DNA of 40,753 nucleotides from Candidatus Zhuqueibacterota bacterium (GTDB taxonomy: Bacteria > Zhuqueibacterota > Zhuqueibacteria > Residuimicrobiales > Oceaniaggregativiventaceae), in assembly GCA_014728085.1 (NCBI GenBank), contig WJMF01000052.1, forward strand, positions 1 through 40,753, written 5' to 3'. Under the pieces are notes generated by a model. That model saw only the letters and a program-made list of their open reading frames with translations, did no database searches and had not been told where the DNA came from. Shown piece by piece: positions 5,097-36,337 of the stretch. The number at the start of each line of letters is the position of its first letter. The first letter of the stretch is position 1. Made by a program: the position numbers and the translations under genes.

Positions 5097-7472
5097 TTGG
5101 ACAGAGCAGTGAATCCGTATAAAAAGCGATTGAAAAAATGGTTTTCCCCTTTTGAAGAGTCTGTCTCTGCATCGCGATTGCATAAGATGATGAGAATCAG
5201 TATCATAGCCGGTGCCACAGGGATGCCCTGGCTGGTTACATTTCTGCCGGGATATATTCTCAATGTTTTTTTTAAAAATTATCTCGGCGGCTCTGCATTT
5301 TTGCTCGGTTTGATGGTCGCGTTGATCCATTTCACCAATTTCGGACATCTGGCTGCCATTTATATTTATGCACGGTTGAAAACCATCAAAACCTTCTGGT
5401 GGATTTGCCACCTCCTGCATCGCATGCTGGGCTTTGTTCCCGCACTGATCTGTATATACGTCATTCACGGCGGTGACGTTTATACCGCACGTATCATTAT
5501 GATCGTAACGATCACTCTGAGCTTTTTCATCTCCAACATCAGTTCTTCAGGTTGGTTTGCCTGGATGGGGGTTCTGGTACCGGCGAACATCCGTGCCTCT
5601 TTTTTTACGAGAAGAATAGCCATCAGCAATATCGTCAGCATATTGTGGTTTTTTCTCGTCACCATGGCGCTGGATGTCCAGAATCAACATGCTCTTTCCG
5701 TCTTTGCGGTCATCTTCTTTTTCGCCGGTATCGGAGGCGTCGTCGATATTGCGCTTCATGTATTCATAAGAGAGCGCCTCAGCGAACCAAAACCCCCGAT
5801 CCAGCTCTCTCTTTTCCTGGAACCCCTGAAAAACAAAAATTTCCGCTACTTTGCCCTTGCCTACGCCCTTTACATGTTTTCCTTTAACATCCTGAATCCC
5901 TTTCTCGGCCCCTATCTCACTGCTGAAGAGGGCATCGGCGCCCCGAATATCTGGCTCGGTATATTGGTCATGATTATTCAACTCACCACGATCGCGACAC
6001 TGTCGCAGTGGGGGCTTGTTATGGATCGCGTCGGTCGCAAACCGGTGGCACTTATCGGAAGCCTCGCGTTTATTGCCAATGTCGGTTGGTTTTTTCTAAC
6101 CCCGCAAAATTATATCTTTATCGTACCGGTTATTGCTTTTGTCACCGGCGCCCTGAATCCGGCTTTTGTCGAAGGTATCAACCAGCTCATGCTCACCATT
6201 ACTCCGGACAAGAACAAAACCACGTTTGTCGGCTGGTTCATGGCAATTGTCGGTATTGCCAACGGAGCCGGCTCATTGCTGGGAGGTATACTCTATGATA
6301 TTTTCTCCAGCGTACATATGACCGTTACGCCCTGGCTAATACTGGACAGCTTTCACATGGTTGCCCTGATTAACATTACCCTCTGCGCGCTGAGTCTGAT
6401 CATTCTGGTACGCATTCATGAAGGAGGAGAAAAACCAATAGGATTCGTGGTTTCGAGATTGGCCACCCCTGGTATTGTTAAGACCTTTTCCAGTATGGCG
6501 ATCATCAGCCGGCCCAAAAGTTCATTAAAAGTTGCCAAAGCCCTGAGCGAACTTGAAGGATATTCCGGCAGTTTTGCCGTATCGGACGTTCTGGCCAGGC
6601 TGGACGATCCGGACCCCGATGTCAGAGAAGAAGCGGCACGGGCGTTGGGACGAACCAAATCGCTCGAAGGTGTGGAAGCCTTGATACTGCGGTTATTAGA
6701 CCCCACATCGACTATTCGCATCGTCAGTGCCAATGCCCTGGGAAATATCGGGGATGAACGTGCCGTTCCGGCATTAATTCAGGCTCTGAACACAGGGTCA
6801 GAGGATTTAAAAGAAGCCTGTATCAAAGCACTGGGCAAAATAGGGGGAACAGAATCGGTATCCCACCTCATCAAACTTTTACAGGAAGAGAACAGCGAGC
6901 GCATTAAAACCCAGAGCGCTGATGCGGTTGCCAGACATGGCGTCTTTGAGGCTGCTTATGAAATATTGCCTCTCATGCATCAAACCAGAAATCCGGTTCT
7001 GAGAAGGCAGCTTGCGATATCGCTGGCCAATTTAATGGGAAGACCCGGAGAGTTTTACAAAGATCTTACCTCGGAAAACGTTGCGTTTGGAAACCGTATC
7101 AACAGATTGTTTACAGAAGCTTTACGCTCGCTGGCAATGATCGAAAAGACCAAAAAGATTCCCAAAAATGAACTGGTAAATCAGCTCAGGAGCATACAAA
7201 ATACATTGGAATCTGAAAAGTATCTTAAAACTCTTGATCAATTTTTATCCCTCATCAAGTCGCTGGTCAGTATCAGCCTGCAAAAGGAGATAAAAGACGA
7301 TGAAGCACTGCTCTATTATGTCATCTACCGCAATGTTAAACTGGGTATGCTGCTCTGGTTTGTTCAGGAAATCAATGCGTTTGGGCAAAAATCGATAAAT
7401 GAGGATATTCTAAAAACAGATCTTTTATTGATTATGTTTTTCATCGCTTCCCTCAAAGCCGAAGAGGTTTGA
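5097..7472 (+). CDS. MFS transporter fused to C-terminal HEAT repeats
   Basis: This 791-residue protein has two parts. Residues 30-440 form a major facilitator fold with about 12 hydrophobic segments and a clear motif A (GLVMDRVGRKP, residues 306-316). After a linker, residues 475-650 contain PBS-lyase-type HEAT repeats with phrases such as DPDPDVREEAARALGR, IRIVSANALGNIGD and LKEACIKALGKIGG. A further helical tail follows to residue 791. The HEAT domain should be cytoplasmic and may bind a partner protein or gate transport; the transported solute is unknown. The start is uncertain: TTG 5097 has GAGG too close and GTG 5109 has it rather far. It is divergent from the aldolase gene and convergent with the flavoprotein gene. 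Confidence 0.88.
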   Translation: MDRAVNPYKKRLKKWFSPFEESVSASRLHKMMRISIIAGATGMPWLVTFLPGYILNVFFKNYLGGSAFLLGLMVALIHFTNFGHLAAIYIYARLKTIKTFWWICHLLHRMLGFVPALICIYVIHGGDVYTARIIMIVTITLSFFISNISSSGWFAWMGVLVPANIRASFFTRRIAISNIVSILWFFLVTMALDVQNQHALSVFAVIFFFAGIGGVVDIALHVFIRERLSEPKPPIQLSLFLEPLKNKNFRYFALAYALYMFSFNILNPFLGPYLTAEEGIGAPNIWLGILVMIIQLTTIATLSQWGLVMDRVGRKPVALIGSLAFIANVGWFFLTPQNYIFIVPVIAFVTGALNPAFVEGINQLMLTITPDKNKTTFVGWFMAIVGIANGAGSLLGGILYDIFSSVHMTVTPWLILDSFHMVALINITLCALSLIILVRIHEGGEKPIGFVVSRLATPGIVKTFSSMAIISRPKSSLKVAKALSELEGYSGSFAVSDVLARLDDPDPDVREEAARALGRTKSLEGVEALILRLLDPTSTIRIVSANALGNIGDERAVPALIQALNTGSEDLKEACIKALGKIGGTESVSHLIKLLQEENSERIKTQSADAVARHGVFEAAYEILPLMHQTRNPVLRRQLAISLANLMGRPGEFYKDLTSENVAFGNRINRLFTEALRSLAMIEKTKKIPKNELVNQLRSIQNTLESEKYLKTLDQFLSLIKSLVSISLQKEIKDDEALLYYVIYRNVKLGMLLWFVQEINAFGQKSINEDILKTDLLLIMFFIASLKAEEV

Positions 7473-22419: not shown

Positions 22420-24318
22420 ATGCCACATATGATTATCGGCACAGCAGGCCACATCGATCATGGCAAATCCGCTCTTGTTAAAGCGCTGACCGGCACAGAT
22501 CCGGATCGCCTTCAGGAAGAGAAAAAACGGGGGTTGACGATTGATCTTGGTTTTGCTTTTCTCGATAAAGATATCGCTATTATCGACGTCCCGGGTCATG
22601 AAAAATTTGTAAAAAACATGGTTGCCGGTGTCAGTACGATAGATTTCGCCATATTGGTGGTCGCTGCCGATGACAGCGTCATGCCACAAACACGGGAACA
22701 TTTCGACATTCTCAAATTGCTGGATGTAGCAAACGGCATTATCGTCATCAATAAATGCGATCTCGTTGATGATGACTTGATGCAACTGGTAAAAGAGGAT
22801 ATCTCGGACTTGGTCAGAAACACGTTTCTGCAAAATGCCGACACATTCATCGTCTCCAGCACCACCGGCGAAGGAATCGACGCCTTGCGCAGCTATCTTC
22901 TCGGGTTGCCGGGGAAGATAAAACCCCGTACCGGGCAGGGTCTTTTCTGGATGCCTGTAGACCGTTCCTTTTCAATAAAGGGATTCGGTACCGTTGTAAC
23001 CGGGTCGGTACTGAGCGGTTCGGTGCGCGTTGGTGAAACAGTCGAACGGATTCCGGGTCGATTGCTCAAAATTCGCAATATTCAAAGCCATGGCAATAAA
23101 GTCGAGCAGGTAGCTGCAGGTGAACGCGCAGCCCTCAATCTGCACAATATCACCAAGGAAGAAATCAAACGCGGTGATGTATTGGCCACACCGGATTATT
23201 TCAAGCCAACAAATCGCCTCGATGCCAAACTCTATTTGCTGGAAAGCGCCCCGAAAACGCTTAAAAATCGCGTCCGTGTGCGCTTGCATCTGGGAACACA
23301 GGAGTTGTTCGCCCGGCTGACCCTGCTGGACCAGAAACACCTTTTGCCGGGCGAGTCCGCCTATGTGCAGCTGCATCTTGAGAAACAGACCGCAACCCGC
23401 CGACGCGAACACTATGTTATCAGACAATATTCCCCGGCCATTACCATCGGTGGAGGTATTGTTCTGGATGACCAAGCCGCTAAACACCGCCGCTTCGATT
23501 CCAATACCATCAAACAGCTGAAACAACTCGAACAACAGAATCCGGAAGAAATTGTTACGCTGACGCTTTTAAATACCCCCTATCAATGTCTCGGCTTGTC
23601 AGAGCTGGCGCGGCAAAGTGGCTTCCTTTCAGAAGAAATCAAACCCTATATCGATAAACTCGTCAATGACGGTGAGATAACTGTCCCTGGTAAGGGAAAC
23701 AAATCAGTCTATACCCATTCAGTTCACGTCCGGAGATTAAGCGAAACCATCATCAGAGTAATAACCGATTTTCATGAGGGGAATCCGTTAAAAGCGGGTA
23801 TAAGCAGGGCGGAGTTGAAGGAAAATTCAGGTCCAAAAATCTCCTCTATCCTTTTTGACTATGTGTTGCAAAAGCTTGTTGCAGAAAAGCAACTCGTTAC
23901 CGTTGACCGTTGGATTAAACGACGGGAACATGAGATTCGCCTTTCCGCCGGACAAAAAGCGCTGGCAGACCAAATCGAAGCCCTGCTGCTGAAATCGCCT
24001 TTCATGACGCCATCCCTGCAGGAGATAGCCGCTCAAATCGGAACCCCGGTTCAGGACATTGAAAAGGTAACCGGCGCTCTGCAGGGGCAAAATAAAGTCA
24101 TTCGGGCGGAAGGGGACCTCTACTTTCATCAAAATGCGATCGAAAAAGCGGAACAGATGTTGATTGAACTGTCTAAAAAACAGGAAGAAATGAGTGTAAG
24201 TGAGTTTCGCGAAATGCTCAATACCACTCGAAAGTTCGCGATGGGTTTGCTCGATTATTTCGACGCCAAAGGCCGTACAGAACGGGTGGGAGATACAAGA
24301 GTAATTCATCATGAATAA
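22420..24318 (+). CDS. selB: Selenocysteine-specific elongation factor SelB
   Basis: This 632-residue translational GTPase is close in length to known bacterial SelB. G1 is GHIDHGKS (residues 10-17), G3 DVPGH (56-60) and G4 NKCD (near 109). EF-Tu-like domains II and III follow, then a C-terminal part of winged-helix modules (segments such as QEIAAQIGTPVQDIEKVTGAL) that binds the SECIS hairpin of selenoprotein mRNAs. SelB delivers Sec-tRNA to in-frame UGA codons. The AAGGAAG about 9 nt upstream supports the ATG. selA, selC and selD are not in the window. It is 21 bp upstream of a lipoprotein gene in the same direction. Confidence 0.94.
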   Translation: MPHMIIGTAGHIDHGKSALVKALTGTDPDRLQEEKKRGLTIDLGFAFLDKDIAIIDVPGHEKFVKNMVAGVSTIDFAILVVAADDSVMPQTREHFDILKLLDVANGIIVINKCDLVDDDLMQLVKEDISDLVRNTFLQNADTFIVSSTTGEGIDALRSYLLGLPGKIKPRTGQGLFWMPVDRSFSIKGFGTVVTGSVLSGSVRVGETVERIPGRLLKIRNIQSHGNKVEQVAAGERAALNLHNITKEEIKRGDVLATPDYFKPTNRLDAKLYLLESAPKTLKNRVRVRLHLGTQELFARLTLLDQKHLLPGESAYVQLHLEKQTATRRREHYVIRQYSPAITIGGGIVLDDQAAKHRRFDSNTIKQLKQLEQQNPEEIVTLTLLNTPYQCLGLSELARQSGFLSEEIKPYIDKLVNDGEITVPGKGNKSVYTHSVHVRRLSETIIRVITDFHEGNPLKAGISRAELKENSGPKISSILFDYVLQKLVAEKQLVTVDRWIKRREHEIRLSAGQKALADQIEALLLKSPFMTPSLQEIAAQIGTPVQDIEKVTGALQGQNKVIRAEGDLYFHQNAIEKAEQMLIELSKKQEEMSVSEFREMLNTTRKFAMGLLDYFDAKGRTERVGDTRVIHHE

Positions 24319-26805: not shown

Positions 26806-29028
26806 ATGCCAAAATGGATATGCATTCTTTTGATCTTTGTTTTGGCCTGCCATGCTCAAGAGGTCATCTATTATGTTTCTCCGCAGGGAAATAACAGCTG
26901 GTCCGGAAAAATCGCCGTGCCAAACAAAGACCATAGCGATGGGCCCTTTCGCACACCGGAATGGGCACTTGCGGCAATTGAGAAAGAGAAATCTGAAAAA
27001 ATTATCGTCTATTTTCGTCAGGGCATTTACGCTTTGGACAGCACGATCAGCTTCCAGCCTGACCACAGCGGTACGGCTGACCGGCCGGTGATTTGGTCTG
27101 CTTTTGCCAACGAACATCCTGTGTTTACAGGGGCAAAAGCTTTAAACGGACACAAACGATCCACCCGCCCCTTTTTTAATTCAAAAGGTAAAAATCATAT
27201 CATTGAATATGATCTCGAAAAATTGGGCATTGTTGAATATGGCGGCATTGAGCCGCGCGGAGCGCCTCCGCTGCAACTCTTTTTCAACGGCCGCCGAATG
27301 ACCATGGCCAGATATCCGAATGAAGGCTGGCTCAGGGTCGCTGATGTACCTCAGCAGGGGGACTCGCTCTTTCACGAAGGGCTGGAAAGAGAAAAACGCT
27401 ATGACGGCGTTCCGGTGGGCAGACACTACGGCCGAATTGTCTACTCGGGCAACAGACCGAATAAATGGCACTCGCCACAACAGGCATACGTGCACGGCTA
27501 CTGGACATGGGACTGGAGCGATTCCTACCAAAAAATTGAACGCATCGACACTCTGAAAAAAGAAATCACCCTCGCTTCTCCACATCACCACTATGGCTAT
27601 ACCAAAAATCAGCGCTATTATTTTTTAAATATCATTGAAGAGCTCGATACCCCCGGTGAATGGGTTTTGGATCGTAAAGAAAGAAAAATGTATTTCTGGC
27701 CACCGGCAGATCCGGATTCGGCCGTTATATATGTTTCCACGCTTTCTCATCCAATGATGAGGATAAACGCTTCATATATATCGATTCGCGGGTTGAAATT
27801 CAGCTCGAGCCGGGGGGAAGGCGTCGTAATCGAAGGCGGTAACTATAATGAAATTGCCGGCTGTACCTTTCAACATCTTGGCAAACAAGCGGTGGTTATC
27901 AACGGAGGTAATCACAACGGCGTCAGCTCCTGCAATATATCCAATATGAGTCTTGGTGGCATTGTATTAAAAGGCGGAAACCGTCCGACCCTGCAACGCG
28001 GAGAAAACTATGCAGTCAATAATCATATCCATCATTTTAGTCAATGGATAAGAACCTGGCAACTGGCCATCGATTTATATGGCGTGGGCAATCGCATCGC
28101 TCATAATCTCATCCATGATGGGCCTCATGAAGCCATCTATGTGCGGGGAAACGATCACCTCGTCGAGTTTAACGAAATTCACAGTGTCTGTCAGGAAACC
28201 GGAGATGCCGGGGCAATTCATACGGGCAGAGATTACACCTGGCGGGGAAATGTATACCGTTATAACTATATTCACCATCTTCAGGGCCAGGGACTGCACG
28301 GCGTGACTGCACTTTATCTGGACGATTTTAGTTCCGGCTATACACTCTATGGCAACATCTGCTACCGTTCAGGACGAGGGACATTGATCGGCGGCGGTCG
28401 CGATAATGTAATACAAAACAATCTCTTCATCGACTGCCACCCTTCTATTCTTCTCGATGCCCGGGGATTGAGCTGGGCTTTTTATTATTTTGACGGTACC
28501 TATAATGTGCTCTGGGAAAGAATGGCGGCTATGAATGCCACCCAACCTCCTTTTAGCCGACGCTATCCCGAGCTGCTGACGCTTAAAGAGGATAATCCCG
28601 CCGTACCCAAAAACAACCGTATCCTGAACAATGTTTCCACTGGCGGACGCTGGATCGAGCTCTACGATTACTATGCCTTTGAACCAGATGTCTATACGAT
28701 AAAGAATAATCTCATCGCAGATGCGGAAATATTAAAGCGTATTCAATCCCCTCCAAACGGCTGGGAGCCCTATTATCTCGATCTCAACTCGACAGAGGGA
28801 TATATTGTTTTTGACAATAATGATACCCCTGCAAACGACCTGCTTCCGGGCAATATGATAACGGATAATGCCGGTCTGAAAGAAACGGAGAATAAACGCT
28901 TTACGCTCAAGCCGACCAGTCCCGCTTTTGAGCTGGGCTTTAAAGCGATCCCTGTCGACAGCATTGGATTGATATCAGACCGTTACCGAAAGCTGCCGGC
29001 CGATAACAACAACGCTACAATGCAATAG
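26806..29028 (+). CDS. Secreted right-handed beta-helix protein, probable glycan-active enzyme (paralogue 1)
   Basis: This 740-residue protein has a short signal with a possible lipobox (VLAC, Cys15). It opens with YYVSPQGNNSWSG and a DGPF segment typical of beta-helix carbohydrate-active proteins. A large central region (about 300-560) is rich in short repeats with N, H and G (HNLIHDGPHEAIYVRGNDH, NYIHHLQGQGLHG, GGGRDNVIQNN), as in parallel beta-helix folds. Long members of this kind include GH141-type glycosidases and some lyases; I cannot assign the activity. The SD AAAGGA supports the start. It is the first gene of a six-gene operon and is paralogous to the gene at 29907-32171. Confidence 0.85.
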   Translation: MPKWICILLIFVLACHAQEVIYYVSPQGNNSWSGKIAVPNKDHSDGPFRTPEWALAAIEKEKSEKIIVYFRQGIYALDSTISFQPDHSGTADRPVIWSAFANEHPVFTGAKALNGHKRSTRPFFNSKGKNHIIEYDLEKLGIVEYGGIEPRGAPPLQLFFNGRRMTMARYPNEGWLRVADVPQQGDSLFHEGLEREKRYDGVPVGRHYGRIVYSGNRPNKWHSPQQAYVHGYWTWDWSDSYQKIERIDTLKKEITLASPHHHYGYTKNQRYYFLNIIEELDTPGEWVLDRKERKMYFWPPADPDSAVIYVSTLSHPMMRINASYISIRGLKFSSSRGEGVVIEGGNYNEIAGCTFQHLGKQAVVINGGNHNGVSSCNISNMSLGGIVLKGGNRPTLQRGENYAVNNHIHHFSQWIRTWQLAIDLYGVGNRIAHNLIHDGPHEAIYVRGNDHLVEFNEIHSVCQETGDAGAIHTGRDYTWRGNVYRYNYIHHLQGQGLHGVTALYLDDFSSGYTLYGNICYRSGRGTLIGGGRDNVIQNNLFIDCHPSILLDARGLSWAFYYFDGTYNVLWERMAAMNATQPPFSRRYPELLTLKEDNPAVPKNNRILNNVSTGGRWIELYDYYAFEPDVYTIKNNLIADAEILKRIQSPPNGWEPYYLDLNSTEGYIVFDNNDTPANDLLPGNMITDNAGLKETENKRFTLKPTSPAFELGFKAIPVDSIGLISDRYRKLPADNNNATMQ

Positions 29029-29055
29029 CCGGATTCAAGGAGCAAGGAGAAAAAA

Positions 29056-29910
29056 ATGAAACTTGGAATTCATGCTTATGCCTGGTGCTCTCAATGGAGC
29101 AACGATACGCTGGATATCATAGACCGGGTTAAAAAACTAGGTCTCGATTTTATCGAAATTCCCTTAATGGTACTCGAAACCTTTGATGCAATGGCCGTAC
29201 GGCAGAGGCTGGAAAAGGTGGGGATCGATGTCTGCACCTCTACTGTTCTGCTCAATGACACCGACATCACCAGCGAGGATGAAACGATCCGCAAAAAAGG
29301 GGTAGACTATCTCAAAGCGTGTGTGCGTGCGACCAGCGAAATCGGAGCGCACAATCTATCCGGTGTAATCTATTCCCAACACGTCAAGCCGACAATCAAG
29401 GCGCCTACGGAAAAAGAATGGCAATATTCGGCAGACTGCCTGCGCAACGTTGCAAAATATGCCCAGCACTATAATGTCCGGATCGGCCTTGAACCGGTCA
29501 ACCGCTATGAGACGTTTCTCATCAATACCTGTTCGCAGGCGTTGCGCCTGAAGGACATGATCGGCGAAGAAAACGTTAAAATTCATCTGGACACCTATCA
29601 CATGAATATCGAAGAAAAGAATTTTTATGACGCCACCATGCAAGCGGGCAAGGACCTGATTCATTATCATCTTTGTGAAAATGACCGCGGCATACCCGGC
29701 ACCGGCCTGGTCAACTGGGATGATATTTTTCGCGCCCTCGGTGAACTGAATTACCAGGGATATGCCGCACTCGAATCCTTTGTAGATATGACCGATAACA
29801 TGAACACCTGGGTTTGGCGCCGGCTGGCCAGAAACGGGGACACGCTGGTTCACGAGGGTATAGCTTTTATTAAAGAACTGATGAAAAAATACAATCTGGG
29901 TACGTCATGA
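29056..29910 (+). CDS. Sugar isomerase/epimerase of the D-tagatose 3-epimerase type
   Basis: This 284-residue TIM-barrel enzyme belongs to the AP endonuclease 2/xylose isomerase-like superfamily. Metal ligands expected in D-tagatose/D-psicose 3-epimerases are at matching spacing: Glu146 (LEPVNRYE), Asp179 (HLDTYHMNIEE), His205 (HYHLCENDRG) and Glu240 (ALESF). Such enzymes epimerise ketohexoses at C3 through a cis-enediolate with Mn2+ or Co2+. No signal peptide is present, so it acts in the cytoplasm. AGGAG precedes the ATG by about 7 nt. Its stop overlaps the start of the second beta-helix gene by 4 bp, so translation is coupled. The family call is firm; the natural sugar is unknown. Confidence 0.92.
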   Translation: MKLGIHAYAWCSQWSNDTLDIIDRVKKLGLDFIEIPLMVLETFDAMAVRQRLEKVGIDVCTSTVLLNDTDITSEDETIRKKGVDYLKACVRATSEIGAHNLSGVIYSQHVKPTIKAPTEKEWQYSADCLRNVAKYAQHYNVRIGLEPVNRYETFLINTCSQALRLKDMIGEENVKIHLDTYHMNIEEKNFYDATMQAGKDLIHYHLCENDRGIPGTGLVNWDDIFRALGELNYQGYAALESFVDMTDNMNTWVWRRLARNGDTLVHEGIAFIKELMKKYNLGTS

Positions 29911-32171
29911 AAAAGACACAAAAAATGATCAGCGCAGCGACAGTCCTCGTCTTTTTGATCTCTTTTAGCTGTGACCGACAGGAATTGGGCGACAATGCAT
30001 TTTTTATTTCTTTGGAGGGTAACGATAACTGGTCCGGCCGCCTGGCTACGCCGAACAAGAACAAAACAGATGGTCCGTTTGCCACGTTTCAAAAGGCTAA
30101 ATCAGCGGTGCGCGGCCTGAAAAAATCAGATTCACTGACCGCTCCCGTTCATGTTTATGTGCGGGGCGGAGATTATGAATTCAGAACCTTTCTTCAACTG
30201 AATGAAAAGGATAGCGGAACACCCGTTTCTCCGGTCAAATGGCAGGCCTATCCGAATGAAAAGGTTACGCTGAGGGGGAGCAAAATCATTACCGGATTCA
30301 AAACGGTTTCGGACAGCAGCATTCTCAAACGATTTACCCCCCAGGCCCGCGATCATGTTTTGATGGCAAACCTAAAAGCTCAGGGGATTCAGGATTACGG
30401 ACGGCTCAAAGCAAAAGGCTTTGGACGCAAACCAATCCAACCCCTCGCTATGGAGCTCTTTTTCAATCAGCAGCCGATGGTCCTGGCGCGTTATCCGAAT
30501 GACGGCTGGCTGACCATCAAAAAGGTGCCACAAAACGGTGGCAAACCGGAACATGCCGGCAGCGCTGGTAATTTGTTTAACGGTATCCCTGCCGGCCGTC
30601 ACTATGGACGCTTTGAATATAATGGCAATCGTCCGAGTCGATGGCATTCCTTTGACGACATATGGATGCACGGTTTCTGGACATGGGACTGGGCCGACAC
30701 CTATGACAAGGTGGCAGAAATCGACACGACAAACAACCTGATCTATCCGGCAAAGCCCTATTGCAACTACGGTTATCGCCAGGGACAGCGATATTATTTT
30801 CTCAACGTTTTGGAAGAACTGGACTCCCCCAAAGAATACTATCTTGATCGCAATAACGGCGTTCTCTATTTCTGGCCGCCCTCCTCTGTTAAAGGAGGAA
30901 AAGCCGAGGTCTCGATGCTGACCGATCCTTTTTTTCGGCTCGATAATTGCCGTCATATTGAGATCAACGGATTCATTTTCCAGGCCTGTCGGGGCAAGGC
31001 CTGTGTGGTGACCGGCGGCGAACGGAATGTGATCGCGGGCTCTGTTTTCCGCAATATCGGTAATGAAGCGGCAGTCTTTGAACAGGGCTATCAAAACGGC
31101 ATAAAAAGCTGTAACCTCTACAACCTTGCCGGTACGGCAATAAAACTGCACGGTGGGGACCGGCTTTCGCTGAAACCGGGAAAACTCTATGCGATCAATA
31201 ACCATATTCACCATTACGACAGGATATTTTATACCTACCAGGCCGCTATAGATATCGATGGTGTGGAAAACCGTGCTGCTCACAATCTTATCCATGATGC
31301 TCCGCATATGGCCATCCTTTTCCGTGGCAATGAACATCTTTTGGAATATAACGAGGTCCATACCATCGCCGAAGAAACCGGGGATGTCGGGGCTTTTTAT
31401 CTCGGCCGCGACTGGACCTGTCGCGGCAACGAGATTCGCTATAACTATTTTCATCACATGCACGGACCGGGATTACACGGCGTCAATGCTGTCTATCTGG
31501 ACGATTTTGCCAGCGGCACACTGGTATATGGTAATCTTTTTTACAAGGTTGACCGCGGTGCCTTTATCGGCGGCGGCCGGGATAATATCATCAAAAATAA
31601 TATTTTTGTCGACTGCTTTCCATCCATTCATGTAGACGCCAGGGGACTGGGATGGGCGGATAAATACTTTACCGGTGAGGTGACAACCCTTTATGACCGA
31701 ATGGATGCAATGAACTATAAGCAGCCCCCCTACAGCGAAAGATATCCTGAATTGCTGATGCTCTATGACGATGAACCCGCCGTGGCAAAGGGTAATGTGA
31801 TTACACAAAACATTTCCTACCAGGGTCGCTGGATGGATATATATGATGGTCTGGATTTTAATGATCTCCGCGTAAAAGATAACCTGATCGCAGCTTCCGA
31901 GCCAAGCCAATGGTCTCCATTTGACGATCATGTCACCGAGGAAAAAAACTGGATTTATCTAACCTTTGAAAACGATGACGTTCCGGATGAACTCAGAAAC
32001 AACCAAAATCTCGTCATCGACCATGACCCCGGTTTCAAAAATGCTGAAAACAAAAACTGGAATCTGGAAAAAAACGCTCCCGCTTTCGAGCTGGGGTTTC
32101 AGCCGATTCCTATAAAAAAAACAGGATTGGAAAGCGATAAATATCGAAAGGCGCTGCAAAATCTGAAATAG
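29907..32171 (+). CDS. Secreted right-handed beta-helix protein, probable glycan-active enzyme (paralogue 2)
   Basis: This 754-residue protein resembles the product of 26806-29028 along its whole length. Shared landmarks are NWSGRLATPNK near the N-terminus, the GRHYGR...YNGNRPSRWH block, the WTWDW segment, the beta-helix core with NLIHDAPHMAILFRGNEHL and GGGRDNIIKNN, and a similar C-terminus (FELGFQPIPI). The N-terminal signal MKKTQKMISAATVLVFLISFSC may be lipidated at Cys22; an Asp at +2 would keep it at the inner membrane under E. coli rules. The activity is unknown. The gene starts inside the last codons of the epimerase gene (ATGA), so the three genes form a tight unit, and duplication of an ancestor is likely. 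Confidence 0.85.
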   Translation: MKKTQKMISAATVLVFLISFSCDRQELGDNAFFISLEGNDNWSGRLATPNKNKTDGPFATFQKAKSAVRGLKKSDSLTAPVHVYVRGGDYEFRTFLQLNEKDSGTPVSPVKWQAYPNEKVTLRGSKIITGFKTVSDSSILKRFTPQARDHVLMANLKAQGIQDYGRLKAKGFGRKPIQPLAMELFFNQQPMVLARYPNDGWLTIKKVPQNGGKPEHAGSAGNLFNGIPAGRHYGRFEYNGNRPSRWHSFDDIWMHGFWTWDWADTYDKVAEIDTTNNLIYPAKPYCNYGYRQGQRYYFLNVLEELDSPKEYYLDRNNGVLYFWPPSSVKGGKAEVSMLTDPFFRLDNCRHIEINGFIFQACRGKACVVTGGERNVIAGSVFRNIGNEAAVFEQGYQNGIKSCNLYNLAGTAIKLHGGDRLSLKPGKLYAINNHIHHYDRIFYTYQAAIDIDGVENRAAHNLIHDAPHMAILFRGNEHLLEYNEVHTIAEETGDVGAFYLGRDWTCRGNEIRYNYFHHMHGPGLHGVNAVYLDDFASGTLVYGNLFYKVDRGAFIGGGRDNIIKNNIFVDCFPSIHVDARGLGWADKYFTGEVTTLYDRMDAMNYKQPPYSERYPELLMLYDDEPAVAKGNVITQNISYQGRWMDIYDGLDFNDLRVKDNLIAASEPSQWSPFDDHVTEEKNWIYLTFENDDVPDELRNNQNLVIDHDPGFKNAENKNWNLEKNAPAFELGFQPIPIKKTGLESDKYRKALQNLK

Positions 32172-32200
32172 ATCATCTTAAAAACAGACAGGTAATTAAA

Positions 32201-33361
32201 ATGACCTCAAAAGAGAGAATGGTAACAGCCATTGAAAACAAGATACCGGATCGCCTGCCGGTAACAACACACCACGTTATGGAATCGTTCCTGAAGGATA
32301 AACTGGATGGAATGTCGACACAGAAATTCTTTGACGAGTTTGATCTTGATCCGATCCACTGGACGGTTCCCCACAAGGCGGATAAAGAGAAAGGGTTTTT
32401 TATCGATCCCGACCGCACCGAGCCGGGATTCCTGCAAAGCAGATGGATATTCAGCGACTCGTGGAGCATTGATTCACAACCGGTCACAGACTCACAATAT
32501 GATTCCGAACGCTTTACCATCCATACCCCAAAGGGGGATTTGACCATGGTACTGCAATCAAATCCACATACTGCATGGGTATGGGAGCACCCGGTCAAAG
32601 AAAAAAAAGATATCGATCTTTTGGCTGCCTATATGACATATCCGTTATGTGATGTTGACCAGGTAAATAAAGAAGCAGAAAAATTCGGACAACGGGGATT
32701 AATCCGAGGACATATCGTCGGCTTTGACATTTACGGCCAACCCGGATGCTGGCAGGATGCCTGTTGTCTCGTCGGTACGGAGCAAATGATCATGTATGCC
32801 TATGATGATCCCGAATGGGTTCACGAATTTTTAACGATTTTGCTGCACCGGAAGAAAAAATTTGTTCAATCCCTTAAAGGGGCCAAATATGATATTCTTG
32901 AGCTTGGCGGTGGCGATGCTTCTACGACCGTTATCTCTCCGAAAATATTCAATGAATTCGTTGCCCCCTATGATAGTCAGTTGATTGCCCTGGCACATGA
33001 TGCTGGTCAGAGGATCGTCTACCATACCTGCGGCGGCATGATGCCGATACTTGAAGATATCGCATCAATGCAGCCAGACGCCATGGAAACGTTTACACCT
33101 CCTGAAATGGGAGCGGACGTGAATCTGGCGGAGGCCAAAAAACGCATCGGCACCAAAGTCGCCATGATCGGCGGATTCGATCAGGTCCATTATTTTACCG
33201 GTTGCTCTCCTCAGGAAACCAGAGCAGCGGTCCGGCGCTGCTTTGAAGAGGCCGGCGATAATGGCGGTTATATACTGGCTCCGTCCGATCACTTCTTCGA
33301 AGCGGAAATCGATTTGCTACACGCTTTTGTTGATGAAGCAAAATCATGCACATATCACTAA
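32201..33361 (+). CDS. Uroporphyrinogen decarboxylase-like protein (COG0407 type)
   Basis: This 386-residue protein belongs to the UroD/MtaA/CmuA superfamily, with the opening MTSKERMVTAIENKIPDRLPV and a HTCGG motif (His275, Cys277). Related cobamide methyltransferases bind zinc through His-x-Cys and a later Cys. Here the corresponding C-terminal segment reads ILAPSDHFF with Asp363 and His364 instead of Cys, so it may not be a standard methyltransferase. True haem-pathway UroD would be unusual in a sugar operon. COG0407-type proteins often sit in carbohydrate clusters of environmental bacteria, but their reaction is unclear. It has an SD (CAGGTAA) and follows the beta-helix gene by 29 bp. Confidence 0.85.
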   Translation: MTSKERMVTAIENKIPDRLPVTTHHVMESFLKDKLDGMSTQKFFDEFDLDPIHWTVPHKADKEKGFFIDPDRTEPGFLQSRWIFSDSWSIDSQPVTDSQYDSERFTIHTPKGDLTMVLQSNPHTAWVWEHPVKEKKDIDLLAAYMTYPLCDVDQVNKEAEKFGQRGLIRGHIVGFDIYGQPGCWQDACCLVGTEQMIMYAYDDPEWVHEFLTILLHRKKKFVQSLKGAKYDILELGGGDASTTVISPKIFNEFVAPYDSQLIALAHDAGQRIVYHTCGGMMPILEDIASMQPDAMETFTPPEMGADVNLAEAKKRIGTKVAMIGGFDQVHYFTGCSPQETRAAVRRCFEEAGDNGGYILAPSDHFFEAEIDLLHAFVDEAKSCTYH

Positions 33362-33376
33362 ACAGAGGATCTATCT

Positions 33377-34555
33377 ATGGATAAAAACCAGCGCGATCAC
33401 TATTTACAACTCTACAGAGATGGCTTGCTAAACAACACTCTGCCGTTCTGGATAAAAAGTGCTGTTGATTCGAAAGACGGTGGTTATCTGTTTTGTCTGG
33501 ACCGGGACGGCACAATCGTAAGCACGGATAAACCCATGTGGATCCACGGTCGATTCGTCTGGTTGCTCGCAACGCTTTACGATACAGTCGAAAAAAGAGA
33601 AGAATGGCTTGATCTGGCGCGCCATGGTATGGAATTTATCGATAAATACGGTTTTGATCAGGATGGCCGTATGTTTTTTATGGTGACCAAAAAGGGAAAA
33701 CCCCTGCGCAAGCGCCGTTACCTTTTTACGGAATCCTTTGCCGTGATTGCCATGGCTGCGTTGGCCAAAGCTACCGGCGACGCCAAATGGGCAAAGCGAG
33801 CCCTGGATCTTTTCAAACTGATTATCCATTATCATACAACGCCCGGCCTGTTACCACCCAAAATCATACCCGAAACACGTCAAGGCAAAGCCCTGGCCAT
33901 GCCCATGATTCTGATCGCAACTGCTCAGGTTCTGAGAACGGCCGTTTCCGATCCGGTTTGTGAAGAATGGATCGACAGATCGATTAAAGAGATCAAAACC
34001 GATTTTATGAGAGAAGAATTTTCAGCCGTAATCGAATCCACCGGTCCAAAAGGTGAATTCATGGATACCTTTGAAGGCAGAATGATCTGTCCCGGGCACG
34101 CCATCGAGGCCGGCTGGTTTATTCTGCATGAGGCCAAATGGCGCAACAACGATACTGCTCTCAGAGATATCGGATTAAAAATCCTCGAGTGGTCCTGGAA
34201 ATGGGGCTGGGACGAAAAACACGGTGGCATTCTATACTATCGCGATGCCAAAGGACATCCGCCGGCCGAATACTGGCACGATATGAAATTCTGGTGGCCG
34301 CAAAATGAAGCCGTTATCGCCACCCTGCTCGCCTATGAACTGACAAAAGATGAAAAGTATCTGCAATGGCATCAAATGGCGCATGACTGGGCCTATAAAC
34401 ACCTTCCCGATCCTGAATACGGAGAATGGTTCGGCTATTTACATCGCGATGGCACGATTTCTTCAACTCTGAAAGGCAATTATTGGAAAGGTCCTTTTCA
34501 TCTACCGCGAATGCAGCTCTATTGCTGGAAATTGCTTGAGGAACTGAAATTGTAA
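33377..34555 (+). CDS. AGE-family (N-acylglucosamine 2-epimerase-like) sugar epimerase/isomerase
   Basis: This 392-residue (alpha/alpha)6-barrel protein has the expected catalytic histidines: His241 in CPGHAIEAGW and His375 in GPFHLPRM. MWIHGRFVW (residues 54-62) and WWPQNEA (306-312) line the pocket. AGE-superfamily members interconvert N-acylhexosamines, or aldoses and ketoses such as mannose/fructose and cellobiose/glucosyl-mannose. No signal peptide is seen, so the reaction is cytoplasmic. An AGAGGATC SD precedes the ATG. It follows the UroD-like gene by 15 bp. A partner of the tagatose-epimerase-like enzyme in converting a released sugar is inferred from position. Confidence 0.9.
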   Translation: MDKNQRDHYLQLYRDGLLNNTLPFWIKSAVDSKDGGYLFCLDRDGTIVSTDKPMWIHGRFVWLLATLYDTVEKREEWLDLARHGMEFIDKYGFDQDGRMFFMVTKKGKPLRKRRYLFTESFAVIAMAALAKATGDAKWAKRALDLFKLIIHYHTTPGLLPPKIIPETRQGKALAMPMILIATAQVLRTAVSDPVCEEWIDRSIKEIKTDFMREEFSAVIESTGPKGEFMDTFEGRMICPGHAIEAGWFILHEAKWRNNDTALRDIGLKILEWSWKWGWDEKHGGILYYRDAKGHPPAEYWHDMKFWWPQNEAVIATLLAYELTKDEKYLQWHQMAHDWAYKHLPDPEYGEWFGYLHRDGTISSTLKGNYWKGPFHLPRMQLYCWKLLEELKL

Positions 34556-34609
34556 AAATCCGGTGTCTCACCGGAACAACAAGGTCGCAAAACGGAAAGG
34601 ATCCGTTAC

Positions 34610-36337
34610 ATGCAGTGGATCTGTGTTTTCCTGCTTTTACTTAATGGTATTGTAAACGCTCAATATGGAGATGTCTTATATTGCTTTGACTTTGGTGGAG
34701 CGTTTCAGGATGTTGAGCCGGGGTATACGGCCGTTTCGCGAGTTTATCACAGTCCCAGGTATTTATGGATCGACAATGTCAGGGAGATAGAGTATTATGA
34801 TTCAAAAAACCCCCTTTTAAAGGATTTTGTCAGCAGTGACAAGGGAGAATTTCGGGTCGGGCTGGATAATGGAACTTATTATATCACCTTCATCATGCAT
34901 GATGCCCGCTCGGAACACGGACCCTTTAGCATTTATATTCAGGATAGCCTGGTCTCCTCCGATATAAAAGTCGAGGCTTCTGACACGCTTTTTCTCTCCT
35001 TCCCTGCACGGATCGATAATCAGGTATTGAAAATCCGTTTGCTGTCGCCATCACATCAGGGATCGTTTATCCTGAACGGTTTGACCATCAGAGGCCAGGC
35101 CGGGAAATCCTTGAGGAAAATGTTCGAAAAAGCGCCGCCGGATCAGTTACCGACAGTCGATGAAGTTTTTAAAAAAGGGCTGGTTGACACCCGGCAAACC
35201 CTTAAAGCCTGTTGCGACTGGCTGCTGGCGCACAGATTGCCGAATGGCTTTCTTGGCGATTACGAACACGGAGAAAAGGGAACCCGATACTGGTGGTATA
35301 CTTCAGCCTACCCCATCCGTACCCTGTTGGCCGCGTATGATATATTTGGAGAAAAACACTATCTGAATGCAGTCACCCGGATTCTGGATAAGCTTGTTGA
35401 GGAACAACTACCGAATGGCGCCTGGCACCAGACTTATCGCAATAAACCTACTTCCAGTCTCGGTAAATCCGAGTTGGACAGCATCATGACCACCCAGTGG
35501 ATGAATCTGGCTGATATCGGCAGCATCGCAACAGCATTGGGCGTTTCAATTCAATATGTCGATGCTCAAAGAAAAGAAAAATATGAGCAATCCCTGAAGC
35601 GATTTTGTCGGGAATGGGCAATGCAGTGGCAACGGCCCTCCGGCGGCTTTACCAATGGCATGGAGAGCGGTGTGGCGAGAAAACGCGAATACAGCGTCGC
35701 CACAGCCACACAAACAGCAGCGTTCACAACCCTTTATTGCGCCGGCGGTGAAAAACAGTTCCTCAGTGTGGCTGAACGCGCTGCCTGGTTCCTGTTGCAG
35801 AATTGGAAGCAAGATGGCAGACCTGTTTCGCATGCCCACATCTCGGTTAAAGAGGGTGCCGTTTATGACCAACCCGTTACTCATTTTGGAGATAATTTTT
35901 ATTACAGCGACGGTATCTTGATGCTCTATCACCATACCGAGGATTCTCTTTTAAAGAATAAAATTGAACAGGTCTACGGATGGTATCTGAAAGGAGAAAA
36001 AGGTCTGCTTAATACTCTGGATAACCGTTCCTGGTTTCCCCTGCAGGACGCATGGAATAATTCAAAGACCGCCGGCATTCCTCTTGCTTTTCTCGTCTAC
36101 CAGCAAGCCTGCAATGATGCCGCTATAGATCGCGCTATTGCCATGTTCAAGCGCTTTTTATGTACACCCGCCTTTGCCCGGCGAATCGGCATCATGGTCG
36201 AAGACGCCGACCTGCCCCGGGGAAAACACAGCCTTCAAACATGGGCCGGTTGCAGTGTCTCTGCAACCGGATTTGCCGGCCTCAGCATCGCAGAAATGAT
36301 TAAACCGGGCGTGGTTTTTTTGTCACTGATAAAATAA
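34610..36337 (+). CDS. Secreted two-domain protein: malectin/CBM-like N-domain plus (alpha/alpha)-barrel, unknown activity
   Basis: This 575-residue protein has a signal peptide (MQWICVFLLLLNGIVNAQ). Residues about 22-165 look like a beta-sandwich with CFDFGG, EPGYTAVSRVY and FILNGLTIRG. This resembles the N-domain of rhamnogalacturonan-processing esterases/lyases (FDFG...PGYT pattern). The C-terminal part from about 190 is helical, with WWYTSAYPIRTLLAAYD, GAWHQTYR, SGGFTNGMESG and GDNFYYSDGILMLYHH, typical of six-hairpin glycosidases. I do not recognise a catalytic signature with certainty. AAAGGA precedes the ATG. It closes the plus-strand operon and is convergent with the GH51 gene; no terminator is visible in the 57-bp gap. 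Confidence 0.75.
   Translation: MQWICVFLLLLNGIVNAQYGDVLYCFDFGGAFQDVEPGYTAVSRVYHSPRYLWIDNVREIEYYDSKNPLLKDFVSSDKGEFRVGLDNGTYYITFIMHDARSEHGPFSIYIQDSLVSSDIKVEASDTLFLSFPARIDNQVLKIRLLSPSHQGSFILNGLTIRGQAGKSLRKMFEKAPPDQLPTVDEVFKKGLVDTRQTLKACCDWLLAHRLPNGFLGDYEHGEKGTRYWWYTSAYPIRTLLAAYDIFGEKHYLNAVTRILDKLVEEQLPNGAWHQTYRNKPTSSLGKSELDSIMTTQWMNLADIGSIATALGVSIQYVDAQRKEKYEQSLKRFCREWAMQWQRPSGGFTNGMESGVARKREYSVATATQTAAFTTLYCAGGEKQFLSVAERAAWFLLQNWKQDGRPVSHAHISVKEGAVYDQPVTHFGDNFYYSDGILMLYHHTEDSLLKNKIEQVYGWYLKGEKGLLNTLDNRSWFPLQDAWNNSKTAGIPLAFLVYQQACNDAAIDRAIAMFKRFLCTPAFARRIGIMVEDADLPRGKHSLQTWAGCSVSATGFAGLSIAEMIKPGVVFLSLIK

Follow-up and report, generated by a model that had tools for sequence, protein, structure and literature searches.

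What does a UroD-like enzyme do among carbohydrate genes when it lacks one of the cysteines that bind zinc in its better known relatives? The case considered here comes from a stretch of DNA (the window) that makes up a whole contig of 40753 bases (C165) in a 5.19-Mb assembly. The first-pass annotation suggested that the enzyme may not be a methyltransferase and may have a new role on a sugar acid or an O-methylated sugar. The protein, P0001, is read here instead as methyltransferase I (MTI) in a corrinoid O-demethylase whose substrate is an O-methylated sugar, with a probability of roughly 0.55. Of the two parts of this reading, corrinoid-dependent methyl transfer is well supported by gene linkage in relatives, and the sugar is suggested by the neighbouring genes. 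The gene and its neighbours are as follows.

26806 to 29028, + strand: right-handed beta-helix protein, likely polysaccharide-active (PF13229, 60 bits; weak GH141_M match, 26.7 against a cut-off of 27)
29056 to 29910, + strand: sugar epimerase or isomerase with a xylose-isomerase-like TIM barrel, D-psicose 3-epimerase-like (PF01261, 140 bits; NF051856, 220.5 against a cut-off of 300)
29907 to 32171, + strand: right-handed beta-helix protein (PF13229, 45.8 bits)
32201 to 33361, + strand: UroD-superfamily protein P0001, proposed corrinoid methyltransferase I (ATG start, 386 aa; PF01208 match)
33377 to 34555, + strand: N-acylglucosamine 2-epimerase family protein, a sugar 2-epimerase or isomerase (PF07221, 155 bits; NF052547, 381.9 against a cut-off of 600)
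34610 to 36337, + strand: weakly pectate-lyase-like protein, which closes the run (PF09492, 19.2 bits, below the cut-off of 22)

These genes form a tight run on the + strand (26806-36337) with gaps of at most 54 bases, and the earlier placement of the gene in a carbohydrate operon thus holds. Scanning the run for promoters and terminators brought no decisive result, and a plasmid search returned distant matches only (<60% identity). Elsewhere in the window, positions 22420-24318 (+) encode the selenocysteine elongation factor SelB, with GTP_EFTU and SelB winged-helix domains; a tRNA gene scan of the whole window found none. A 791-aa protein encoded at 5097-7472 (+) joins a Major Facilitator region to HEAT repeats, an uncommon combination.

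By profile and predicted fold, P0001 is a member of the UroD superfamily. A profile search matches residues 183-381 to URO-D (PF01208) with 83.8 bits (Pfam cut-off 23.9), and the AlphaFold2 model (pLDDT 84.7, pTM 0.88) aligns in VIA-align with Z scores of ~26 to UROD/HemE and ~24.7 to MtaA (range 24.6-26.6). The nearest solved structure by sequence is MtaA (E 5e-7, PDB profile search), and the chloromethane enzyme CdmB (PDB 9rui) gives a weak C-terminal profile match to the P0001 family (16.6 bits, E 0.076). The named subfamilies remain distant: MtaA/CmuA-type NCBIfam models score 58-63 bits against cut-offs of 235-400, and the MtbA model 30 bits against 600.

Orthologs of P0001, mostly 60-69% identical with a few at 38-47%, come from relatives' genomes and from 80 loci. 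The genome collection has 385 confirmed relatives, of which these loci are the closest, so that the family statistics cover the close subfamily and some more distant rows. Rows with a phylum label span 11 phyla, the labels being those of metagenome bins, which can contain foreign contigs. The family tree needs 16 changes of phylum label, where the least possible is 10; this is compatible with some horizontal transfer, mis-binned contigs or paralogs being the alternative. P0001 itself pairs with a protein of a Phycisphaerae bin (SH-aLRT 91, not starred). The simple ORF rule used to call neighbouring genes missed the ortholog's own frame at ~10 loci (L082 and L102 among them); these lie outside the 79 loci counted below, and none contains a member of the corrinoid cluster.

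Evidence for a corrinoid partner comes from the loci of these relatives. By neighbour clustering, 7 of 79 loci (L065, L069, L095, L107, L125, L128 and L131) encode a ~215-aa corrinoid protein close to the ortholog, six of them within one same-strand run, and both cluster members scanned (n=2) have B12-binding_2 and B12-binding domains. Between 0.23 and 0.68 such loci would be expected (Poisson P 5e-9 to 7e-6), assuming 1-3 carriers per 4.5 Mb, 1.02 Mb of DNA and independent loci. The linkage requires at least five state changes on the tree and is therefore not one inherited cluster. The available DNA of the other 72 loci, many of them short contigs, contains no corrinoid gene. The full partner set of corrinoid protein, methyltransferase II (MTII) and activator lies near the ortholog in one locus only, L131 (labelled as an Acidimicrobiia bin), which encodes, in order, the ortholog, the corrinoid protein, a THF:corrinoid methyltransferase (351 bits, cut-off 259), an AcsV/RACo-type activator (344 bits, below the AcsV-like cut-off of 800) and an MTHFR-like gene. 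L125 (Melioribacteraceae) has a corrinoid protein, a methionine-synthase-activation-domain (B12-activation-domain) protein, a homocysteine methyltransferase and a D-lyxose-isomerase-like protein listed before the ortholog, which is followed by two more UroD proteins and a GH31-cluster protein, the GH31 assignment resting on a scanned member of the same cluster. The only B12-binding_2 match of genome G037 adjoins the ortholog, and in G049 the match beside the ortholog is the only one in a short frame.

Across 60 genomes the numbers of the two protein types vary together. The eight genomes without a stand-alone corrinoid protein (B12-binding_2 of at least 50 bits, frame no longer than 330 aa) have 0-4 UroD matches with a median of 1, and the others have a median of 5 (Mann-Whitney P = 1e-4). 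The difference persists without eight incomplete genomes (P = 3e-4), although completeness confounds part of it.

In the window's own genome the putative partners are scattered. The first-pass annotation saw no corrinoid protein nearby, and indeed the three B12-binding_2 matches of the genome are all on other contigs (C9, C38 and C205), with none on C165; none occurs in a methionine-synthase-sized frame. Only the C9 protein is counted as a stand-alone carrier, since the other two matches appear to belong to proteins of another kind; by eye, the frame on C205 begins with a MerR-like helix-turn-helix. The C9 protein is 64-66% identical to the corrinoid proteins near the orthologs in L065 and L069, and the corrinoid protein is nearest to the MtgC/MtbC-type carriers, which serve N-methyl substrates. 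There are two AcsV-like activators (C178 and C182, one of them cut by a contig end) and a weak pterin-binding MTII candidate on C164 (68.7 bits, cut-off 259). A corrinoid partner encoded elsewhere had been named in advance as something that would tell against the loss of methyl transfer, and both a candidate carrier and candidate activators are thus found on other contigs.

The genome has 30 URO-D matches, 29 of them above the cut-off, and one stand-alone corrinoid protein, and this single carrier may serve many UroD enzymes. Another of these enzymes, on C35 (L161:4198-5817), is an MtaA-like UroD protein with C-terminal thioredoxin-like domains. It adjoins a GTPase that is CobW-like by eye, and the same contig has, not far away, a match to the homocysteine methyltransferase family that is interrupted by an in-frame stop; this locus is possibly a methyl-sulfur or methyl-selenium system.

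The substrate has to be sought in the surroundings of the orthologs. Among 98 of the 99 immediate neighbours (the fragment locus L056 was dropped), Pfam families include URO-D (13), the GH38 C-terminal domain (7), sugar transporter (6), the extracellular solute-binding SBP_bac_1 (4), beta-helix (4), B12-binding (4) and AP_endonuc_2 (3), followed by sulfatase, ROK, heparinase-like and D-lyxose isomerase families (2 each). As a control, the 82 neighbours of other UroD genes in the own genome gave SSF symporters (5), GFO/IDH/MocA (3) and AP_endonuc_2 (2), and none of the 25 families listed was a glycosidase family that recurred; this control is only a rough one because it involves different taxa and a different definition of neighbour. 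A recurring cassette in Anaerolineae comprises GH31, a beta-helix protein and the ortholog, together with one or two additional UroD proteins. Cassettes of GH31, beta-helix, ortholog and UroD genes (clusters c12 and c23) are seen in L080, L082, L101 and L125, often with GH38 and transporter genes nearby. A different arrangement, similar by eye in two places (L049:2797-6015 and L150:2124-5294), is a gene pair encoding proteins of ~770 aa and ~270 aa, the former without a Pfam match in L049. The pair adjoins the ortholog in L049 and another UroD paralog in the own genome (L150), as though the module had exchanged one UroD enzyme for another.

Neighbours vary between ortholog loci and no single sugar enzyme is universal, so context does not fix the substrate. 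An O-methylated sugar is favoured because carbohydrate families recur beside orthologs and less so beside other UroD genes, and these neighbours suggest that it is the substrate of P0001. The sugar role first suggested for the enzyme is accordingly retained in its setting and, as a best guess, in the O-methylated sugar; the part that denied methyl transfer is not. The corrinoid, MTII and activator evidence is equally compatible with a corrinoid-dependent enzyme whose methyl donor is not a sugar (a methyl-sulfur, methyl-selenium, N-methyl or aromatic O-methyl compound, or methanol) and for which the sugar genes are mere neighbours. This is rather unlikely. In its favour, the corrinoid protein resembles the MtgC/MtbC carriers, and the substrates known for the superfamily comprise aromatic ethers and haloalkanes as well as methyl-S/Se compounds (PMC13222342, PMC10418091). 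The recurrence of carbohydrate families beside orthologs, beyond that beside other UroD genes of the genome, argues for the sugar, and an S-methyl donor is further disfavoured by the absence from P0001 of the His-Cys-Cys set that is said to mark S-methyltransferases.

The putative metal site was one of the original reasons to doubt methyl transfer. Two sequence features bear on it.

33023 to 33031, + strand: His275-x-Cys277 (codons 275-277), a candidate pair for the metal or active site, the same in all 78 aligned family members
33287 to 33298, + strand: Asp363-His364-Phe-Phe (codons 363-366), where Cys-type relatives have the third zinc Cys, invariant in 78 of 78

The pair, reported at first reading, lies within YHTCGG, and the C-terminal segment, GGYILAPSDHFF, which contains APSDHFF, has no Cys, in keeping with the earlier description of SDHF in place of a zinc ligand. 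The 78-member family alignment also keeps His24, Glu234, Glu296, Cys383 and Tyr385 invariant. MAFFT places Asp363 opposite the CmuA Cys, whereas hhalign places that Cys opposite a one-residue gap that Asp363 adjoins; the two methods differ by one residue and agree that no Cys occupies the third position. PDB profile search did not place the third ligand, as the MtaA alignment ends before the C-terminus and CdmB has no Cys in the weakly aligned stretch. The invariant Cys383 was considered as a substitute ligand and rejected on topology: in the AlphaFold2 model it follows the last barrel helix (370-382), should therefore be on the face opposite the strand-end residues 275, 277 and 363, and would be unlikely to reach the site.

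To call the third Cys usual was too strong. Besides P0001 the genome has 29 URO-D matches, of which all but three (on C128, C60 and C30) were aligned. Of these 26, His-x-Cys is kept in 16, the third-ligand column holds Cys in three and His in nine, and the full His-Cys-Cys is present in two; with Cys in so few paralogs, its absence is the rule in this genome. PMC10418091 describes UroD-superfamily O-methyltransferases in which one or both Cys ligands are replaced by carboxylates or non-ligands, and the His-x-Cys and Asp-His residues of P0001 would fit that description. PMC13222342 reports CdmB to be active without zinc and cites a zinc-free Moorella O-demethylase. Judged by these accounts, the lost third Cys does not speak against methyl transfer, and its absence from a UroD paralog should not be read as loss of methyltransferase function.

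A UroD-fold enzyme that acts on a sugar acid or keto sugar and transfers no methyl group is accordingly rather improbable. It would account for the incomplete zinc site, the orphan position in the window and the 72 of 79 ortholog loci without a corrinoid gene. However, corrinoid, MTII and activator genes are linked to the ortholog in diverse relatives, up to the partner set and MTHFR-like gene of L131, and every family member keeps His275-x-Cys277; the earlier suggestion of a non-methyltransferase is thus not supported. More doubtful still is an acceptor-side, MTII-like role, in which P0001 would pass the methyl group from methyl-corrinoid to an acceptor, as MtaA and MtbA do. The nearest named models and the nearest solved relative by sequence are MtaA-type, but L131 already has a pterin-type MTII and L125 a homocysteine methyltransferase, and the thiol-type His-Cys-Cys site is missing. 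A haem-pathway uroporphyrinogen decarboxylase can practically be dismissed even though UROD/HemE are among the closest solved folds, as P0001 is not HemE by its score on the equivalog model TIGR01464 (18.9 bits against a cut-off of 302.95) and the N-terminal stretch of solved HemE 4wsh, MMRQAGRYLPEY, which we take to be an active-site stretch with Arg residues, is aligned by the family profile with a different stretch that lacks those Arg residues.

With the methyltransferase I reading preferred, a catalytic cycle can be drawn from what the sequences give (family and fold, invariant residues, corrinoid-gene linkage in relatives and partner genes in the own genome); what we infer is the catalysis, any bound metal, the C9 protein as partner and, most of all, the substrate. 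An AcsV/RACo-type activator would reduce a stand-alone B12 protein, for which the C9 protein is the candidate, to the Co(I) state. The UroD barrel would bind an O-methylated sugar or sugar acid freed by the neighbouring polysaccharide enzymes, and a polar site formed by His24, Glu234, His275, Cys277, Glu296 and Asp363/His364, possibly with one metal ion, would polarise the ether oxygen. Transfer of the methyl group to Co(I) would make the free sugar available to the adjoining epimerases, and the methyl group would then be passed to tetrahydrofolate or homocysteine.

Methylated sugars are frequent in plant and algal polysaccharides. If the reading is right, sugar-borne methyl groups have a route into one-carbon metabolism. 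The wider proposal, held tentatively, is that a widespread, horizontally mobile UroD family forms the substrate end of corrinoid O-demethylases for methylated plant and algal sugars, as an oxygen-free alternative to P450 sugar O-demethylation, and that some genomes share one corrinoid hub among scattered UroD enzymes. The enzyme class, a UroD-superfamily corrinoid methyltransferase, is already known. In the open-licence PMC literature, no paper turned up that combines methylated or O-methyl sugars with demethylation dependent on corrinoid or cobalamin; searches of the same literature did not find the P0001 subfamily, its residue signature or its sugar setting, and those for KSB1 or for GH38 with UroD returned nothing on topic. 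Since identity stays at ~60-69% across 11 phyla, a single assay could reveal what a large gene family does.

Known systems share parts of this picture. HemE/UROD have the fold of P0001 but differ in equivalog score and in the N-terminal stretch. MtaA, MtbA and CmuA share the superfamily and the His-x-Cys pair; they carry His-Cys-Cys, whereas P0001 is without the third Cys and falls far below their curated cut-offs. CdmB, the chloromethane MTI of Acetobacterium, has, like P0001, a UroD fold with no Cys at the third position. However, CdmB is reported to be metal-free, to have an aromatic cavity and to act on haloalkanes (PMC13222342), whereas P0001 keeps His-x-Cys and Asp-His. By description, P0001 also resembles the MTIs of the aromatic O-demethylases, MtvB, OdmB, VdmB and MtoB, which have a UroD fold too. 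The same four-part layout is described for MtoB/MtoC/MtoA/MtoD in PMC8630106, and the stand-alone B12 protein, THF-type MTII and activator of these systems are found beside relatives of P0001 as well. Those systems differ in their aromatic setting, where that of P0001 is one of sugars, and from the window's genome in that the partners of P0001 are there unlinked.
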